A stretch of DNA of 64,000 nt from Coprothermobacter platensis DSM 11748 (lineage in GTDB: Bacteria > Coprothermobacterota > Coprothermobacteria > Coprothermobacterales > Coprothermobacteraceae). Under the pieces are notes generated by a model. The model saw only the letters and a program-made list of their open reading frames with translations. It was not told the DNA's origin and made no database searches. This document shows positions 6,544 to 13,301 of this stretch, one piece after another (the first letter of the stretch is position 1; each line of letters begins with the position of its first letter). Location of the stretch: assembly GCF_000378005.1 (NCBI RefSeq), contig NZ_KB899040.1:5163-69162 (forward strand), given 5' to 3'. A program made the position numbers and the translations under genes.

Positions 6544-7785
6544 TCAAAGATTGTTAATGGGAGATTTTTCTGAGGAAACTTTTTCTAATACGGGCTCTAC
6601 CGCTTTGCTTAGAGAACCATGTAAGTAAGAAATGAGTAGTCCGTAATTAACCACAGGGATATTTAAGCGCTGTGCAAGTTGCATTCTTCTCATAAACATG
6701 TTTCTTGTGAGTACGCAGCCTCCACAGTGAATGATGAGCTTGCATTTTTCCAAATCAGCTATGTCGGGAAATTCTTTGCCGGCAAAATAGGTGTAATTCA
6801 ACGTCAAATGGAGCTTCTGCTCTATCCATCGCGGTATTTTTACTCTCCCTATGTCATCACAAGTGGGTACATGTGAGCAAGCTTCAACGACTGCTACGTT
6901 ATCGCCATTTTGTAAGGATTTTAGGGCTTCAATACCATTTAAGAACATATGTATGTCGCCCTTATTTGCAGCTTCCAATATGGAAAACGTTGTCAGAGGA
7001 ATATCATATGGAACGATGGGGTCAACATCCATTATGGCTTGGGAGTCTGTTACCACTAAATCAACCTTGTAATTGAGTTTCTTTAATGTGACATCCAGCT
7101 CTGGCGGTCGAGTAACAACGGCAACCCCACCATGATCTATTACATCTCTAATAGCTTCCACCTGAGGCATTATGAGTCTGCCTTTAGGAGCAGCTTTATC
7201 TATGGGAACCACCAGCACCACTGTGTTGTATGCACCCATGAGGTGAGCCACCAATGGTTTTTCTTCCTCTTCTGGCACGAGACTGCTTATTGTTGTTATG
7301 AGCTGGTCAATATTCTTGCGCTCAATGGCGGAAACTTCAACTACAGGTGTTCCAAAAGCTTTATAGTAGTCTGCAATGTGAGAGCTGCTTATCGCATCAG
7401 CTTTATTAACGGCGATAACAAATGGTATATTCATATCCCGAAGCAACCCTATGGTAAAGTGTTCAAATTCGCCTGGCTTATCGTCTACTACCAATATGCC
7501 TACATCCGCTTTGTACATGGCTCTCTTGGCACGCTCCACACGTTTTTCTCCAAGCAGCCCTTCATCGTCCAAACCGGGTGTATCGATGAGTGTAACCGGA
7601 CCCAATGGCTTTATTTCCATGGTCTTGTAGACAGGGTCTGTAGTAGTGCCCGGCACAGAGCTGACCAAAGCTATATCCTGTCCGGCAATAGCGTTTATCA
7701 AAGAAGACTTTCCCACATTGCGCTTACCTACAATGACAATGTGTTTTCTAAATGCTGTATGTGGCGTTTCCATGCTTTCACTCAT
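6544..7785 (-). CDS. hydF: [FeFe]-hydrogenase H-cluster maturation GTPase HydF
   Basis: 413 aa from the ATG at 7785. HydF is the scaffold that carries the 2Fe subcluster precursor to the hydrogenase. An N-terminal Era-like GTPase domain is present (G1 GKRNVGKSSLINA, G3 DTPGLDDEG, G4 NKAD). The C-terminal cluster site is the HydF pattern CSH (CSHVPTC) followed by HCGGC. The start was chosen because the longer frame runs back inside hydE. The ATG at 7785 overlaps the hydE stop by 8 nt and has GGAGG 13 nt upstream, and ATG 7773 is also possible. It is cotranscribed with hydG and hydE and should mature the HydA encoded 48 kb away. Confidence 0.95.
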   Translation of the reverse strand: MSESMETPHTAFRKHIVIVGKRNVGKSSLINAIAGQDIALVSSVPGTTTDPVYKTMEIKPLGPVTLIDTPGLDDEGLLGEKRVERAKRAMYKADVGILVVDDKPGEFEHFTIGLLRDMNIPFVIAVNKADAISSSHIADYYKAFGTPVVEVSAIERKNIDQLITTISSLVPEEEEKPLVAHLMGAYNTVVLVVPIDKAAPKGRLIMPQVEAIRDVIDHGGVAVVTRPPELDVTLKKLNYKVDLVVTDSQAIMDVDPIVPYDIPLTTFSILEAANKGDIHMFLNGIEALKSLQNGDNVAVVEACSHVPTCDDIGRVKIPRWIEQKLHLTLNYTYFAGKEFPDIADLEKCKLIIHCGGCVLTRNMFMRRMQLAQRLNIPVVNYGLLISYLHGSLSKAVEPVLEKVSSEKSPINNL

Positions 7786-8824
7786 GAGCTTTGGCAATCC
7801 TCCTTCTGTAACCGTGGCTTTCGCTAACCTCATAACCCGCATTTTGAACAAGCAGTTTGGAGCACTTCCCACAGGCTTTATCGTTTTCCATGATGCAAAT
7901 CTTGTTTGGGTAAAGAGCATATTGGGCACGATAAGGCGATGGTGTAAAGTTCGGCATTATTACATTTGCTCCGCACTGTAAAGCCATTTGCCTACCTTGA
8001 GGGCTTATACTTCCAAGAGCCGTTGTAGCGGGAATGTTTGCATCTGGCAGGAATAAGCGTGTAAGCGCAACCATTTTTAGCGTTTTCTCCAGACTTCCAC
8101 CGGCACTGTCTTTCAAAGGTGTGTCAGGATGTGGTATGAATGGACCAATGCCTACCATATCTGCATCAAGCTGGTAAGTGAAAAGTATGTCTTTTGCCAA
8201 TGCTATGTCATCTTGACCAGGCAAGCCCACCATAGAACCTGCGCCGACTTCATACCATAAGCGTTTTAGTTCCAGCAAATGTGCCTTTCTTGTTTCAAAG
8301 TGGTCACCTGGATGCAACTGTGCGTAAAGAGACTCGTCAGCCGTTTCGTGCCTCATTAAGTAACGGTCGGCACCTAAATCTTTCCAATAACGGTACTCAT
8401 AAAAGTCTCTTTCTCCTATGCTCAAGGTTATTGTCATGCCTAAGTTTTTGATACGGCTTACAATTTCACCTATCATATCTGTGGTGTAGAAGGGGTCTTC
8501 GCCTGATTGGAGAACCACCGTTTTTATCCCTTCATTAAGGATGATTTCTGCGCGACTTACGATTTCATCTGGGGTCATGCGGTACCGCTGAACAACGCTG
8601 TTGCCACCCCTAATACCGCAATATAAACAATTATTGCGGCAGTAATTAGAAAATTCTATGATGCCTCTGAAATAGACATCTTTTCCTAAATACTTACGTC
8701 TTATTTCATCTGCCTTACTGAAAAGTTTGGGCGTTATTTCTTCATCGGAAAGTACTGCTGCCACTTCTTCTTGATTTACAGCATCAGGATGACTAATTAT
8801 TTTCGTCAAAATGTCTTCGCACAC
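7778..8824 (-). CDS. hydE: [FeFe]-hydrogenase maturase HydE (radical SAM)
   Basis: 348 aa. A radical SAM enzyme of the BioB/HydE type, with the cluster motif CRNNCLYCGIR (CX3CX2C) near residue 60. HydE acts after HydG in building the 2Fe subcluster of the H-cluster. Conserved strings GEDPFYTTDMIGEIV and RHETADESLYAQLHPGDHF are typical of HydE. The frame opens at GTG 8824 with AAGGTG 7 nt upstream. It overlaps the preceding small ORF by 32 nt, implying translational coupling, and its last codons overlap hydF. Confidence 0.95.
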   Translation of the reverse strand: MCEDILTKIISHPDAVNQEEVAAVLSDEEITPKLFSKADEIRRKYLGKDVYFRGIIEFSNYCRNNCLYCGIRGGNSVVQRYRMTPDEIVSRAEIILNEGIKTVVLQSGEDPFYTTDMIGEIVSRIKNLGMTITLSIGERDFYEYRYWKDLGADRYLMRHETADESLYAQLHPGDHFETRKAHLLELKRLWYEVGAGSMVGLPGQDDIALAKDILFTYQLDADMVGIGPFIPHPDTPLKDSAGGSLEKTLKMVALTRLFLPDANIPATTALGSISPQGRQMALQCGANVIMPNFTPSPYRAQYALYPNKICIMENDKACGKCSKLLVQNAGYEVSESHGYRRRIAKAHE

Positions 8825-9062
8825 ACATGATCACCTTCATACCTTGGCTACGCATTTTCTCATTTACTTCTTGGCATTCTCCTAAAAGTGCGAACTTCTC
8901 ATCTTCGCAGATTATCTGCGGTTCTATGTATTTGTCTTCGCCAGCCTTTAAAGGGGGCAGGTAAGACATACGCCTGCCCACTTTCTCACAAACCCATATC
9001 TTGCAGCCAAGCATTTGTGCCGTTTGTTTTAAGAGTGTTTCACAGTCTGACATCGTGCTCAT
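8793..9062 (-). CDS. Small six-cysteine protein between hydG and hydE
   Basis: 89 aa from the ATG at 9062 (ATG 9053 is also possible). I do not recognise a domain. It has six cysteines, in the contexts SDCE, LGCK, WVCEK, IICED, GECQ and IMCV, with a basic middle (KVGRRMSYLPP). That is a high cysteine count for its length and suggests metal or Fe-S binding, but there is no classic CX2C. It overlaps hydG by 23 nt and hydE by 32 nt, so it is locked into the maturation operon. From memory, Thermotoga maritima also has a small ORF (TM1268) between its hydG- and hydE-like genes; I could not compare sequences. GGAG lies 13 nt before the chosen start. Confidence 0.6.
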   Translation of the reverse strand: MSTMSDCETLLKQTAQMLGCKIWVCEKVGRRMSYLPPLKAGEDKYIEPQIICEDEKFALLGECQEVNEKMRSQGMKVIMCVRRHFDENN

Positions 9063-10470
9063 GATTTTTGACACGCTCCAAAAGGCCTTCCACCATATGG
9101 CGTCTGCCTTCTGGCATTTCATTCAATTCACGTTGGATTAGTGTTTCTCCTACCTCTTTTGTTTTTGGAGAAGCGTAATCCATGAGGTATTCCTGAAAAG
9201 TCAGCAAAGCATTAGGCGTGCAGAAGTTTTTCACAAAGCCCGGTATGGCGTATTCCATGAAATGTTCACCAGTTCTGCCTGCTCTGTAACAGGATGTGCA
9301 GAAAGAGGGGATGTAACCGTTTGATGCCAGTTCATATATGACATCATCAAGAGGACGTGTATCGCCCAAAATGAACTGGCTCTTTTTTACCTCTTCCGGG
9401 TCTTCTTCTGAATAAGAACCTATGCCGATGCTGGAACCTGCATCTATTTGAGAAACGCCCATGTCCAAAGCTTCGCGCCTTATCTCTGGTGCTTCACGGG
9501 CTGTGAGTATCATGCCTGTATAAGGAACAGAAAGCCTGATAATCGCTATTAGGCGCTTAAAGTCATAATCACTTACTCTGTAAGGTGGATTCTCTGCGAT
9601 GGGCGTATTCACTGCTGGTTCCATACGCGGGAAGGAGATAGTGTGTGGCCCTACGCCGAAGCGTTCTTCGAAATGTTTCGTGTGGTACATGAGCCCCATA
9701 ACTTCAAACTTCCAGTCATAAAGGCCAAAAAGGGCTCCTATGCCCACATCATCAATACCTGCCATTACGGCTCTGTCCAGCCCATAAAGTCTGTAAGTAT
9801 AAGAAGATTTGGGACCATGCGGATGGAGTTTTTTGTAAGTCGGTAAATGATAAGTTTCTTGAAATACTTGGAATGTTCCGATGCCTGCTTCCTTAATTGT
9901 TTTGTAGCCCTCCACCGTTTGTGGTGCAGCATTTACGTTGACACGTCTTATCTCTCCCGGCCCGTTCTTGAACTCATAGATTTTGTTTATCACACCAGCG
10001 ATGTATTCAGGCGAATACATGGGATGTTCCCCGAACACTACAATAAGACGCTTATGACCGCGTGACGTCAAAGCATAAAGTTCATTATTGAGTTCTTCAT
10101 CAGTGAGCGTCTTCCTTACCAGTTCTTTGTTCTCCACCCTAAAACCACAGTAGACACATCCATTTATGCATTCGTTTCCTACGTAAAGCGGTGCGAAGAG
10201 GACGATGCGGTTACCATAAACCTGCTGTTTTATCTTCTTAGCCGTTTGAAACATTTCTTCTATTAGATCTGGGTCCTCCGTGTTTAACAGAACGGCTGTT
10301 TCATAAGTACTTAGACGTTCCCGCTCCATGGTCTTCGCCAAAATGTCCCTAACTTCTCTTGGATCTGGGTTCTTAGTTTTTTCCAAAAGGTCATATATTT
10401 CCTGATGAGGGATAAACCCTTCTGTGTCATTTTTACTTAGTTCGTTTGCAATTTTTACGCCGTTGACCAT
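9040..10470 (-). CDS. hydG: [FeFe]-hydrogenase maturase HydG (tyrosine lyase)
   Basis: 476 aa, normal HydG length. It is a radical SAM enzyme that splits tyrosine to give p-cresol, CO and cyanide bound to an Fe-Cys synthon for the H-cluster. The N-terminal SAM cluster site is CINGCVYCGFR (CX3CX2C). The C-terminal auxiliary cluster site CTSC...C fits CX2CX22C exactly, which separates HydG from ThiH. GGAGG precedes the ATG by 13 nt. It follows the small regulator gene by 19 bp and overlaps the Cys-rich ORF. Confidence 0.96.
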   Translation of the reverse strand: MVNGVKIANELSKNDTEGFIPHQEIYDLLEKTKNPDPREVRDILAKTMERERLSTYETAVLLNTEDPDLIEEMFQTAKKIKQQVYGNRIVLFAPLYVGNECINGCVYCGFRVENKELVRKTLTDEELNNELYALTSRGHKRLIVVFGEHPMYSPEYIAGVINKIYEFKNGPGEIRRVNVNAAPQTVEGYKTIKEAGIGTFQVFQETYHLPTYKKLHPHGPKSSYTYRLYGLDRAVMAGIDDVGIGALFGLYDWKFEVMGLMYHTKHFEERFGVGPHTISFPRMEPAVNTPIAENPPYRVSDYDFKRLIAIIRLSVPYTGMILTAREAPEIRREALDMGVSQIDAGSSIGIGSYSEEDPEEVKKSQFILGDTRPLDDVIYELASNGYIPSFCTSCYRAGRTGEHFMEYAIPGFVKNFCTPNALLTFQEYLMDYASPKTKEVGETLIQRELNEMPEGRRHMVEGLLERVKNHEHDVRL

Positions 10471-10489: not shown

Positions 10490-10732
10490 TTATTTGAGTG
10501 GAAGCGTTTTTACTTCCACGTCTTCTACCTGTCCAAGTTTCCCAGTGAGGCTGCCCAATACATCGTTATCAGCTTTGACAACCAAAAGTATGATGGCTGA
10601 ATTCTGTTCCGGTAGGGGATAACCTACGCGCAAGCGTATGTCTTCTGCAAAGTCGTGCAGTAACTCATTAACAGTTCTGTAGGATTTGTTTCTGTTGTTG
10701 ATAATAATGTTGACAATGTAAAATCGTTCCAT
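10490..10732 (-). CDS. Iron-only hydrogenase system regulator, TM1266-like (ACT-type fold)
   Basis: 80 aa. It begins MERFYIVNIIINNRNKSYRTVNELL and has the beta-alpha-beta-beta-alpha-beta rhythm of small ACT/ferredoxin-like domains. It matches the family named putative iron-only hydrogenase system regulator (TM1266), which sits beside hydEFG in many anaerobes. NikR-type folds suggest ligand sensing, but it has no DNA-binding domain, so the mechanism is unknown. It is first in the maturation operon, with GAGGAGG 8 nt before the ATG, downstream of a strongly structured leader that may control its translation. Confidence 0.85.
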   Translation of the reverse strand: MERFYIVNIIINNRNKSYRTVNELLHDFAEDIRLRVGYPLPEQNSAIILLVVKADNDVLGSLTGKLGQVEDVEVKTLPLK

Positions 10733-10740
10733 TTTAGAAA

Positions 10741-10841
10741 CCTCCTCTTTTCATGGCACCTGAAAAAGGAGGCGCAAGCGGAATACTTTAGGCTTTGCCT
10801 TCCTTCCTCGGTGTCAGATTTTTTAAAATCCTCCGCCTCAG
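10741..10841 (-). promoter_or_regulatory. Structured 5' leader of the hydGEF operon (riboswitch-like, class not recognised)
   Basis: Read on the minus strand. CTGAGGCGGAGG (10841-10830) can pair with GCGCCTCC plus TTCAG (10775-10760), enclosing two hairpins: GATTTT/AAAATC (10830-10817) and AGGC-AAA-GCCT (10800-10790). The CCTCC at 10772-10768 could instead pair with the ribosome binding site GAGGAGG (10747-10741). The two pairings exclude each other, so the leader could gate translation. CACC (10813-10810) can also pair with GGTG (10760-10757), a possible pseudoknot. I compared it from memory with SAM, SAH, THF, glycine, lysine, c-di-GMP and Moco riboswitches and SRP RNA and found no match. 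Structure is by eye; the ligand, if any, is unknown. Confidence 0.55.
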
Positions 10842-10846
10842 AACGG

Positions 10847-10879
10847 CTAATTTCATTTTATCACAAAAAGTGAAATTAG
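10847..10879 (-). promoter_or_regulatory. Promoter of the hydGEF operon with a 9-bp inverted repeat
   Basis: CTAATTTCA and TGAAATTAG form a perfect 9-bp inverted repeat separated by 15 bp. On the minus strand a -10-like TAAAAT (10860-10855) touches the downstream arm and a weak TTGTTC lies upstream. A repressor bound here would cover the promoter. The predicted start site near 10848 would give a leader of about 115 nt. Confidence 0.5.
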
Positions 10880-10965: not shown

Positions 10966-12036
10966 ATGAGAGTGGAATATCGCTTGGATAATGCAACTAT
11001 TTTTATAAAGCCTGAACCACTTAAACGGATTTACTTAGAGCTTTCACGTGCCTGTAATTTAAGCTGCGCCATGTGTTTTAGGCATTTTTACAAAGAAGAC
11101 AGCACCAGCTTCATGGATGAAAGCACACTAAAAAACGTAATTGACCAAATTGCACATTCTTCTGTTGAAGAGGTAATCCTTGGTGGTATAGGTGAACCAT
11201 TTTTAAGCCCATATTGGAAAGACGCTATAAAATGGATAAAAGATGCGGGAAAACGTATAGCAATAACCACGAATGGCACGCTGATTGATCAAGAGACAGC
11301 GGCTTTCTTGGTGGCGAACGATGTTGACCGGCTTTACATTTCTGTAGAATCCTCCACTTTAGGCCATAACAATGTTGAAAGCACTATCCATGTTGCTGAC
11401 ATGATGAACATTATGAAGCAGTCAAGCCATACTGAAAATCCTGTCTTGTGCGCCGAAGTTGTTCTTATGAAAAGTACCTTGGAAGACAGTGTTATGCTCA
11501 TAAAAGAGCTTAGCCGCCATGGTTTTAAATACGTACTTTTAAACAACATTCTCCCCATGACTCCAAAGATGGACAATGAAGTCCTTTACGAAAAAAGTAA
11601 AGATGACAATCTATGGCATGAACTTTCTGCTCAGCTTTATAAAGATGTTGCTGTGGAATATCCGGAGTTCTCTATAAAAACAGAGCGCTTGTGCAGGTTT
11701 GTAGAGAGAAACGCCACTGTCATAGCAAGTGATGGTAGTGTGAGTCCTTGTTACCGTCTGCTTCATGATGGGGCAGAGCGCGTTCTCGGAAGAACAAAAA
11801 TGCTTAAGCGGTATTCTTTTGGCAATGTGAATAGCCAATCACTTGAAGAAATATGGGAAAGTTCGTCTTACACCATATTTAGATTCAAGGTACATCATGC
11901 TTTGTATCCATCTTGCACTGATTGTGGTTTTCATGGTGGCTGCGGTTTCTTGTTCAGCACTGATGGCGACTGCCGCAGCAATGTGCCAAGCTGTGGGGAT
12001 TGTTTGTGGTACAGGCAGATTATTTTATGCCCGTAG
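10966..12036 (+). CDS. Radical SAM/SPASM protein, tungsten-cofactor-oxidoreductase-maturase-like
   Basis: 356 aa. The radical SAM cluster site is C30, C34, C37 (SRACNLSCAMCF). The C-terminal region has many cysteines arranged as in SPASM domains (GSVSPCYR, PSCTDCGFHGGCGF, VPSCGDCLW), and the protein ends CLWYRQIILCP. That ending and the LELSRACNLSCAMCFRHF start resemble the maturases paired with tungsten aldehyde:ferredoxin oxidoreductases. No such oxidoreductase gene is in this window, so the substrate assignment is tentative. It lies 26 bp before ahcY, which recycles a product of SAM-dependent methylation rather than of radical SAM chemistry. It is probably expressed from a leaderless promoter. 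Confidence 0.7.
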   Translation: MRVEYRLDNATIFIKPEPLKRIYLELSRACNLSCAMCFRHFYKEDSTSFMDESTLKNVIDQIAHSSVEEVILGGIGEPFLSPYWKDAIKWIKDAGKRIAITTNGTLIDQETAAFLVANDVDRLYISVESSTLGHNNVESTIHVADMMNIMKQSSHTENPVLCAEVVLMKSTLEDSVMLIKELSRHGFKYVLLNNILPMTPKMDNEVLYEKSKDDNLWHELSAQLYKDVAVEYPEFSIKTERLCRFVERNATVIASDGSVSPCYRLLHDGAERVLGRTKMLKRYSFGNVNSQSLEEIWESSSYTIFRFKVHHALYPSCTDCGFHGGCGFLFSTDGDCRSNVPSCGDCLWYRQIILCP

Positions 12037-12062
12037 GATGACAGGGAAAGGAGTGAACAATT

Positions 12063-13301
12063 GTGAGTGAGGTAAGAAGACCAGAATTGTTTAACGAAGG
12101 GCTCATTAAAATTGAGTGGGTAAAGAAATTCATGCCAGTATGCGATGAATTAGAAAAAAGGTATGCCGAGTCAAAGCCATTTTCCGGCACGACTATTGCA
12201 ATGTGCATACACTTGGAAGCAAAAACGGCACGTCTTGCATTACTTCTTAAGAAGGCTGGAGCAGAGGTAATTGTAACAGGAAGCAACCCACTGTCAACGC
12301 AAGATGACGTTGCAGCGGCTTTGGCACACGAAGGTTTGCAGGTATTTGCCTGGAGGGGTGAATCACAAGAGGAATACGAACATAATTTGGAACGCCTCCT
12401 TTCTTTTAATCCGGACCTGATTTTGGATGACGGGTTTGATCTGACGACCATGTTGGTCCAACGCTTTCCTGAACAGGCAAGAAATGTTATTGGTGGCACA
12501 GAAGAGACAACCACAGGTGTAATCAGAGCGCGGAATATGGCCAAAGCTGGAGTACTGCCGTTTCCGGTGGTCGCTGTTAATGACGCACGTATAAAACATT
12601 TATTTGATAATAGATATGGTACTGGCGAATCATCTGTTTACAGCTTCATGCACAATACAAACCTCTTGGTGGGTGGAAAAACCTTTGTAGTTGCTGGTTT
12701 CGGGTTTGTTGGGCGAGGCATCGCAGAGAAACTACGTGGTTTGGGCGCTAACGTCATTGTTACTGAGGTTGATCCCATAAAAGCGTTGGAAGCTCACGCG
12801 GAGGGCTTTACTGTAATGAATATGGACAAGGCTTGTGAACGCGGAGAAGTGTTTATAACAGCTACTGGAGACATCCATGTCATACGTAAAGAGCACTTTT
12901 TAAAGATGAGAGATGGGGCCATTTTGGGGAATGCAGGGCATTTCAATGTTGAGGTGGATGTGGATGCGTTGGAGAAAATGGCTGAAGAGTCCTATGAAGC
13001 TAGACCAAACATAACAGGTTACAAACTTCCCAACGGTAAAGTTCTATTCTTGCTCGCTGAAGGCAGACTAATGAATTTAGCAGCAGGGCAGGGGCATCCT
13101 GCAGAAATCATGGATCTTTCGTTTGCTGCTCAGTTTCTTTCTTTAAAGTATCTGTTGGAACAAAAAGGGAAGTTAAACGCAGAAGTACTGATGGTACCAA
13201 CTATCATTGACGAAGACATAGCGTTTACAAAGCTTTCTTCATTGGGTATCAATATTGACACACTGACTGAAGAGCAAAAAGAATATTTGAGCCGCTGGTA
13301 A
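12063..13301 (+). CDS. ahcY: Adenosylhomocysteinase
   Basis: 412 aa from GTG 12063, with AGGAG upstream. It hydrolyses S-adenosylhomocysteine to adenosine and homocysteine and keeps SAM methylation going. Recognisable strings are CIHLEAKTARLALLLKKAGAEV near the N-terminus, the NAD-binding loop VVAGFGFVGRGIAEKLRGLGA, NVIGGTEETTTG and ILGNAGHFNVEVD. The length fits the shorter type found in thermophilic bacteria and archaea, lacking the insertion of eukaryotic enzymes. The stop codon lies in the loop of a terminator hairpin. Here the organism uses the hydrolase route; no Pfs/LuxS was seen in the window. Confidence 0.96.
   Translation: MSEVRRPELFNEGLIKIEWVKKFMPVCDELEKRYAESKPFSGTTIAMCIHLEAKTARLALLLKKAGAEVIVTGSNPLSTQDDVAAALAHEGLQVFAWRGESQEEYEHNLERLLSFNPDLILDDGFDLTTMLVQRFPEQARNVIGGTEETTTGVIRARNMAKAGVLPFPVVAVNDARIKHLFDNRYGTGESSVYSFMHNTNLLVGGKTFVVAGFGFVGRGIAEKLRGLGANVIVTEVDPIKALEAHAEGFTVMNMDKACERGEVFITATGDIHVIRKEHFLKMRDGAILGNAGHFNVEVDVDALEKMAEESYEARPNITGYKLPNGKVLFLLAEGRLMNLAAGQGHPAEIMDLSFAAQFLSLKYLLEQKGKLNAEVLMVPTIIDEDIAFTKLSSLGINIDTLTEEQKEYLSRW

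Follow-up and report, generated by a model that had tools for sequence, protein, structure and literature searches.

A conserved symmetric hairpin in the leader of the TM1266-hydG-hydE-hydF operon as a candidate site of TM1266 action

The leader of the TM1266-hydG-hydE-hydF operon of Coprothermobacter platensis contains a conserved hairpin which, with all three of its stems backed by covariation, is on comparative evidence a structured cis-regulatory RNA. Comparison among genomes brings out the hairpin and its covariation together with mutually exclusive pairings, an apparently shared regulatory polarity, and co-occurrence with TM1266. We describe it as an RNA control element with expression platforms of known types that is absent from Rfam 15, and consider it somewhat probable that this cis-acting element is held folded by TM1266, which would serve as an RNA-binding repressor. 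TM1266 has so far been termed a 'putative regulator', without a mechanism, and the hairpin provides a concrete candidate site for its action. In the sources searched, we found no earlier description of RNA control of H-cluster assembly genes. Nor was the RNA element itself described in the literature searched, in which a survey of 224 candidate RNAs (doi 10.1093/nar/gkx699) was represented by its Rfam entries.

The hyd operon and its leader hairpin

The window, that is, the whole stretch of 64,000 nt that was analysed, carries the operon on its minus strand, with a leader of about 115 nt on the 5' side of tm1266; all features of operon and leader given below lie on this strand. The tm1266 gene (10490..10732) starts with an ATG at 10732 behind the Shine-Dalgarno sequence GAGGAGG (10741..10747). 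It encodes a TM1266-family protein of 80 aa, the proposed partner of the hairpin, which exceeds the cut-offs of both TIGR03959 (93.2 bits against 60.8) and PF21699 (91.5 bits against 27) and has a solved relative, 2nzc. The other named genes are hydG (9040..10470; TIGR03955, 527 bits), hydE (7778..8824; TIGR03956, 366 bits), and hydF (6544..7800; TIGR03918, 513 bits). A conserved protein of about 99 aa in the hydG/hydE interval (8793..9092) had no Pfam or NCBIfam match; a relative (27% identity, E 2e-11) is encoded in the Athalassotoga operon, and the protein may be an unnamed maturation factor. Similar small proteins recur in many Thermotogota operons (e.g. L122:2845-3096). Divergent from the hyd operon, the region 10966-13301 encodes a radical SAM protein and an adenosylhomocysteinase, the former resembling tungsten-cofactor oxidoreductase maturases (343 bits, under the cut-off of 380).

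The leader core is almost unchanged among three Coprothermobacter genomes, and their alignment revealed a -10-like promoter box, GATAAAAT, at 10855..10862. The box reads CTATAAT in the two related Coprothermobacter, and Thermotogota leaders have TATAAT-like boxes at a similar distance. The transcript is predicted to start at about 10850-10846. A promoter scan of the leader did not include the 10855..10862 box among its listed sites. A start downstream of 10790, which would remove the fold and which the earlier note had named as an objection, is disfavoured by the conserved box just upstream of 10844 and by the predicted start.

The hairpin spans 10803..10844 and reads G-UUCU-GA-GGCG-GA-GGAU...AUCU-GA-CACC-GA-GGAA-G. 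With our model R1, it scored 46.9 bits (E 6.6e-8 genome-wide) and was the sole match in the genome. Stem P1 pairs UUCU (10840..10843) with GGAA (10807-10804) and includes a conserved U·G wobble (10840/10807). In tandem G·A internal loop 1, GA (10838..10839) faces GA (10809-10808), and almost every sequence has GA/GA, GA/AA, or AA/AA here. Stem P2 pairs GGCG (10834..10837) with CACC (10813-10810); in Coprothermobacter, it contains one C·A mismatch. Internal loop 2, also a tandem G·A loop, sets GA (10832..10833) against GA (10815-10814), and stem P3 pairs GGAU (10828..10831) with AUCU (10819-10816), its consensus in an alignment of 32 leaders being GGR/YCU. Where two small hairpins had been proposed in the earlier note, the conserved element is this single hairpin (10844-10803) of three short stems split by two internal loops.

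Both strands of the hairpin read UCU-GA-N4-GA-GGA, giving it two-fold symmetry. The two half-site strands, 5' and 3', were 80% identical over 61 sequences, compared with a mean of 29% and a maximum of 66% in ten-column permutations, and the element can therefore be read as two inverted copies of one half-site (UCUGA/GAGGA). Gaps in the 32-leader alignment were confined to the apical loop, and the loop between the repeats varies from about 0 to 10 nt. By eye, the TM1266 leaders of the class of G025 and of a few other genomes have an apparent single half-site and an ordinary closing stem; in other lineages, the TM1266 leaders L178-L182 and L214-L216 carry a single half-site UCUGA...RAGGA (or CUGA...RAAG) with a normal closing stem. 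Tandem G·A pairs beside CUGA also recall kink-turns of the box C/D-like type, but this assignment was rejected, since there is no three-nucleotide bulge and the internal loops are symmetric 2x2 loops in almost all sequences.

The single-sequence folding energy of the window leader is unremarkable (z -1.6) and uninformative, so evidence for the fold must come from comparison. Leaders were read from TM1266 genes of related as well as distant genomes, and a motif was visible by eye in those of Coprothermobacter, of Thermotogota, and of the class with KSB1 as its named members. In the 32-leader alignment, 92.8% of the cells form a standard pair, compared with at most 62.5% when the 3' strand is slid by 1 to 3 columns. 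Double-sided changes occur in 7 of the 13 pairs, and RNAalifold, unaided, gave the same three stems.

Covariation was then assessed against an R-scape-like null that takes the tree into account, with a FastTree tree, Fitch states, replay of substitutions at random columns, and an APC-corrected G statistic. For 66 distinct sequences, a set chosen in part by pairing, structure pairs filled the top eight of 561 column pairs, with one pair per stem at E about 0.001-0.002 (3-40 in P1, 0.002; 9-34 in P2, 0.001; 16-27 in P3, 0.002) and pair 17-26 at E 0.06. For 28 distinct seeds selected by sequence pattern alone, with no pairing criterion, the values were 0.001 for 17-26, 0.015 for 16-27, and 0.3 for 9-34. 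Each of the four P2 pairs shows changes at both positions in alignment A5 (61 sequences), where its forms include UCGC/GCGA, CCGC/GCGG, GAUC/GAUC, and GGUC/GACC; the U·G adjoining loop 1 is kept in 59/61 sequences and the G·U adjoining loop 2 in 52/61. Covariation among orthologous leaders, on which the earlier note had staked its proposal, is thus present under a tree-aware null.

These changes also bear on whether the element acts as DNA. The direct repeat TCTGAnnnnGAGGA is present on both strands just downstream of the promoter-like box, as an operator for a transcription factor might be, and the RNA fold would then be incidental. We consider such an operator very improbable, considering the compensatory changes in all three stems, the variable loop length between the repeats, the overlap with the Shine-Dalgarno sequence just before the start codon in KSB1, and the mutually exclusive terminator and antiterminator pairings.

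Searches of Rfam 15 with the window gave no match at gathering scores and, at a relaxed threshold, only a 12.6-bit chance match to sR4; in 19 homologous loci, no family exceeded its gathering score at the motif. Together with the covariation, these searches bear out the earlier proposal of a structured, Shine-Dalgarno-controlling leader, unmatched in Rfam, before the whole [FeFe]-maturation operon.

Mutually exclusive pairings and expression platforms

The 3' strand of the motif with its extension, CACCGAGGAAGGAAGGC (10797..10813), can form an alternative, anti-sequestor helix with a downstream switching strand, GCCTCCTTTTTCAGGTG (10757..10773). The switching strand has two possible partners, 10813-10797 in the predicted ON state and the Shine-Dalgarno region (10753-10741) in the predicted OFF state. 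For the window sequence, the hairpin plus the Shine-Dalgarno helix was computed at -37.5 kcal/mol and the alternative at -35.9 kcal/mol; for a transcript ending at 10757, the alternative was favoured (-30.7 versus -24.2 kcal/mol). The predicted probability that the Shine-Dalgarno sequence is unpaired rises from about 0.0-0.16 in OFF to 0.44-0.83 in ON.

The letters and coordinates from which the earlier note had drawn its switch are correct (CTGAGGCGGAGG, 10841-10830; CCTCC, 10772-10768; GAGGAGG, 10747-10741), and pairing of CCTCC with the Shine-Dalgarno sequence was seen in the minimum-energy fold. The competitor of that helix had been placed in CTGAGGCGGAGG, but the real one is CACCGAGGAAGGAAGGC (10813-10797) pairing with GCCTCCTTTTTCAGGTG (10773-10757). 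A pairing of CTGAGGCGGAGG with CCTCC is possible in Coprothermobacter and is not a conserved competitor, the competitor in Thermotogota being the 3' strand. As for a suggested CACC/GGTG pseudoknot, the complementarity (10813-10810 with 10760-10757) holds, and it forms the outer end of the long anti-sequestor helix instead of a pseudoknot.

Thermotogota leaders have, immediately downstream of the hairpin, an intrinsic terminator whose 5' arm is complementary to the hairpin's 3' strand; the antiterminator duplexes of six clear cases were computed at about -27 to -33 kcal/mol. The hydF leaders show a shorter form of the same terminator/antiterminator design. In KSB1 and some Thermotogota, the Shine-Dalgarno sequence lies inside the closing stem P1 of the hairpin. 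In Mesoaciditogales-type leaders (L122, L125, L127, L129, and L133), the Shine-Dalgarno sequence of the motif drives a short reading frame into a terminator-like hairpin; ahead of hydG in the first four of these, this arrangement suggests translation-coupled attenuation. By pairing and energy computation, the platform and the conserved fold are mutually exclusive. To judge from base pairing, formation of the hairpin would turn expression OFF in every platform.

This design resembles that of TRAP, PyrR, and LicT, in which a protein-stabilised RNA structure excludes an antiterminator and termination and Shine-Dalgarno versions occur in one family. It differs in its RNA motif, a pair of inverted tandem-G·A half-sites, and in a protein family not known to bind RNA; the Rfam PyrR model scored no higher than 28 bits (cut-off 54), and did so at an unrelated place. 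Autogenous ribosomal protein leaders of the L20/S15 type are also structured, precede the gene of a small protein, and give feedback repression by translation or termination. TM1266, by contrast, is no ribosomal protein and no RNA mimic of it is known, and the element also occurs before unlinked operons (hydF-aspA, hydG, and TonB receptors).

Co-occurrence with TM1266 and the genes behind the motif

Across genomes, it is the TM1266 protein, rather than H-cluster assembly, that the motif follows. TM1266 is encoded by all 77 genomes with the motif in Thermotogota and the KSB1 class. R1 matched 61 of 103 Thermotogota genomes, and three more had variants recognised by eye or at low score; the model had first missed G078, G160, and G094, whose variants were found by reading the leaders. 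In Thermotogota, the motif was present in 64 of the 67 genomes with TM1266, which Thermotoga maritima, the control genome, also encodes, and in 0 of the 36 without. The corresponding counts in the KSB1 class were 13 of 15 (no motif was found in G177 and G185) and 0 of the 48 others. The genomes are not independent, so that Fisher p-values overstate the support given by such counts. Among 386 diverse genomes, every match below E 1e-6 was in a genome with TM1266, and no confident match occurred without it. The TM1266 leaders L189, L190, L191, L198, L203, and L207 had no recognisable motif.

Part of this co-occurrence is simple linkage, the commonest motif site being the front of TM1266 itself. 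In ten genomes (G067-G070, G078-G080, G160, G178, and G186), the motif was found only away from TM1266, which is still encoded. The motif was absent from all five Thermotogota genomes, members of one genus, that have hydG and lack TM1266, whereas 11 of the 13 KSB1-class genomes with TM1266 and without detected hydG have it. The motif is not tied simply to hydrogenase assembly.

The local history of the five-genome genus can be seen beside a tmRNA gene, directly behind which the hyd operon lies in this Thermotogota family (L223-L227 compared with L228, L231, and L232): one genus has lost tm1266 and the motif there. In its relatives G110, G094, and G104, hydG, TM1266, and the motif stand together behind the tmRNA gene. 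A single deletion may have removed tm1266 and the motif.

The same fold was found ahead of TM1266/hyd genes in Thermotogota, KSB1, Neomarinimicrobiota, and others, and TM1266 leaders in further lineages have recognisable variants or single half-sites. Second motif sites precede hydF-aspA (families confirmed for L123), hydG-hydE-hydF, hydE, and an NMT1/SsuA-like ABC transporter. The site before hydF-aspA links hydF with aspA. AspA belongs functionally to the pathway, since ammonia-lyases can provide the H-cluster with its bridging nitrogen in vitro (PMC11736057). In the KSB1 class, the motif is followed by tm1266 and then by hydG-aspA-hydF-hydE (L173 and L174) or a TonB receptor; in L162 and L171, a TonB receptor lies directly behind it. 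The predicted regulon comprises TM1266, hydG/E/F, aspartate ammonia-lyase, TonB receptors, and an NMT1-type transporter.

Several single loci were also noted. In a Thermotogota genome (G076, L133:4433-6274), the motif is followed by a short reading frame, a terminator-like hairpin, and then an NMT1/SsuA-type ABC transporter. TonB receptors coupled to TM1266 or to the motif (L163:5711-8341, L162:1609-4050, and L171:974-3412) come mostly without detectable hydG, and one such locus of the KSB1 class adjoins an ECF substrate component. A pattern match in Parahaliea (L064), beside which no TM1266 or hyd gene was recognised, was rejected as chance. A match in G546 (E 3e-5), the one stronger outlier checked, falls within an amidase-like coding region and was also rejected. 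A weak third site in Athalassotoga (L124, E 0.035) was left out of the counts.

Considering these genes, the main rival explanation is a riboswitch, in which the hairpin itself would bind a metal ion or a small molecule (possibly two, one at each half-site) and shut off TM1266, hyd, and importer genes; TM1266 would then be no more than the gene most often regulated. Classical riboswitches use terminator and Shine-Dalgarno platforms of this kind. Importer genes such as those behind some motifs (TonB receptors with an ECF component nearby, and an NMT1/SsuA-type ABC transporter) are common for riboswitches, and small riboswitches such as guanidine-II share compact, conserved, symmetric sites, OFF platforms, and some downstream importers. 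We nevertheless regard a riboswitch as rather unlikely. Its distribution should be independent of any single protein gene, but no confident motif was found without TM1266, the ten unlinked genomes included. The element would be small for a selective aptamer, having about 40 nt and a single stem stack with a variable loop at its apex, no single metabolite is common to the regulated genes, and a dimeric protein fits the dyad symmetry at least as well. Unlike guanidine-II-type riboswitches, it has no Rfam match, and its presence follows a protein gene, not a pathway.

The hairpin could instead be the site of a protein other than TM1266, or of a ribosome-associated factor, which would be conserved among these genomes and would control TM1266 operons. 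A conserved U·G wobble flanking tandem G·A pairs is typical of sites recognised by proteins, and no computation singles out TM1266 by contact. Such a factor would, however, have to follow TM1266 across phyla, in genomes with and without hydG, and we consider it improbable. A CsrA site was rejected as a poor fit, the GGA elements sitting in stems.

TM1266 as a candidate RNA-binding repressor

That TM1266 binds this RNA, and represses by doing so, is our inference, as is a co-ligand. Of the models consistent with the symmetry, the polarity, and the co-occurrence, TM1266 as a repressor is the simplest. In this model, the hairpin, when held folded, would leave its 3' strand unable to pair with the downstream switching strand. 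The freed switching strand would then enter an intrinsic terminator (Thermotogota) or a Shine-Dalgarno-hiding helix (Coprothermobacter), and the genes would be OFF. Opening of the hairpin would allow the alternative helix to form and expression to turn ON. The folding factor would most likely be TM1266, a protein of 80 aa with no added DNA-binding domain. Besides its own operon, it would repress hydF-aspA, hydG-hydE, and some importer genes in trans. TM1266 may act when loaded with a signal molecule, a plausible co-ligand.

The earlier guess that the signal lies in H-cluster chemistry (SAM-cycle compounds or tyrosine) fits poorly with the KSB1 class, where the motif precedes TM1266 and TonB receptors in genomes in which no hydG was found. 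It is more likely that the signal is the TM1266 protein itself or something that TM1266 senses, with Fe as a remaining candidate. The compound imported by the KSB1-class TonB receptors could point to it.

We know of no RNA-binding homologue of TM1266. Its profile is marginally similar to ACT/NikR ligand-binding domains (E about 0.25), with weak matches to those of NikR and of RelA-type ACT proteins; unlike NikR, it lacks the DNA-binding domain and has only about 80 aa. There is, in our view, an even chance that TM1266 founds a new class of RNA-binding regulators, in which an ACT/NikR-like dimer would recognise two inverted tandem-G·A half-sites and control, in several phyla, [FeFe]-hydrogenase maturation and, in genomes without hydG, certain importers. 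If TM1266 does bind the hairpin, this would represent a new class of protein-RNA recognition. Within TM1266, R35 is invariant, and K65 and K75 are nearly so.
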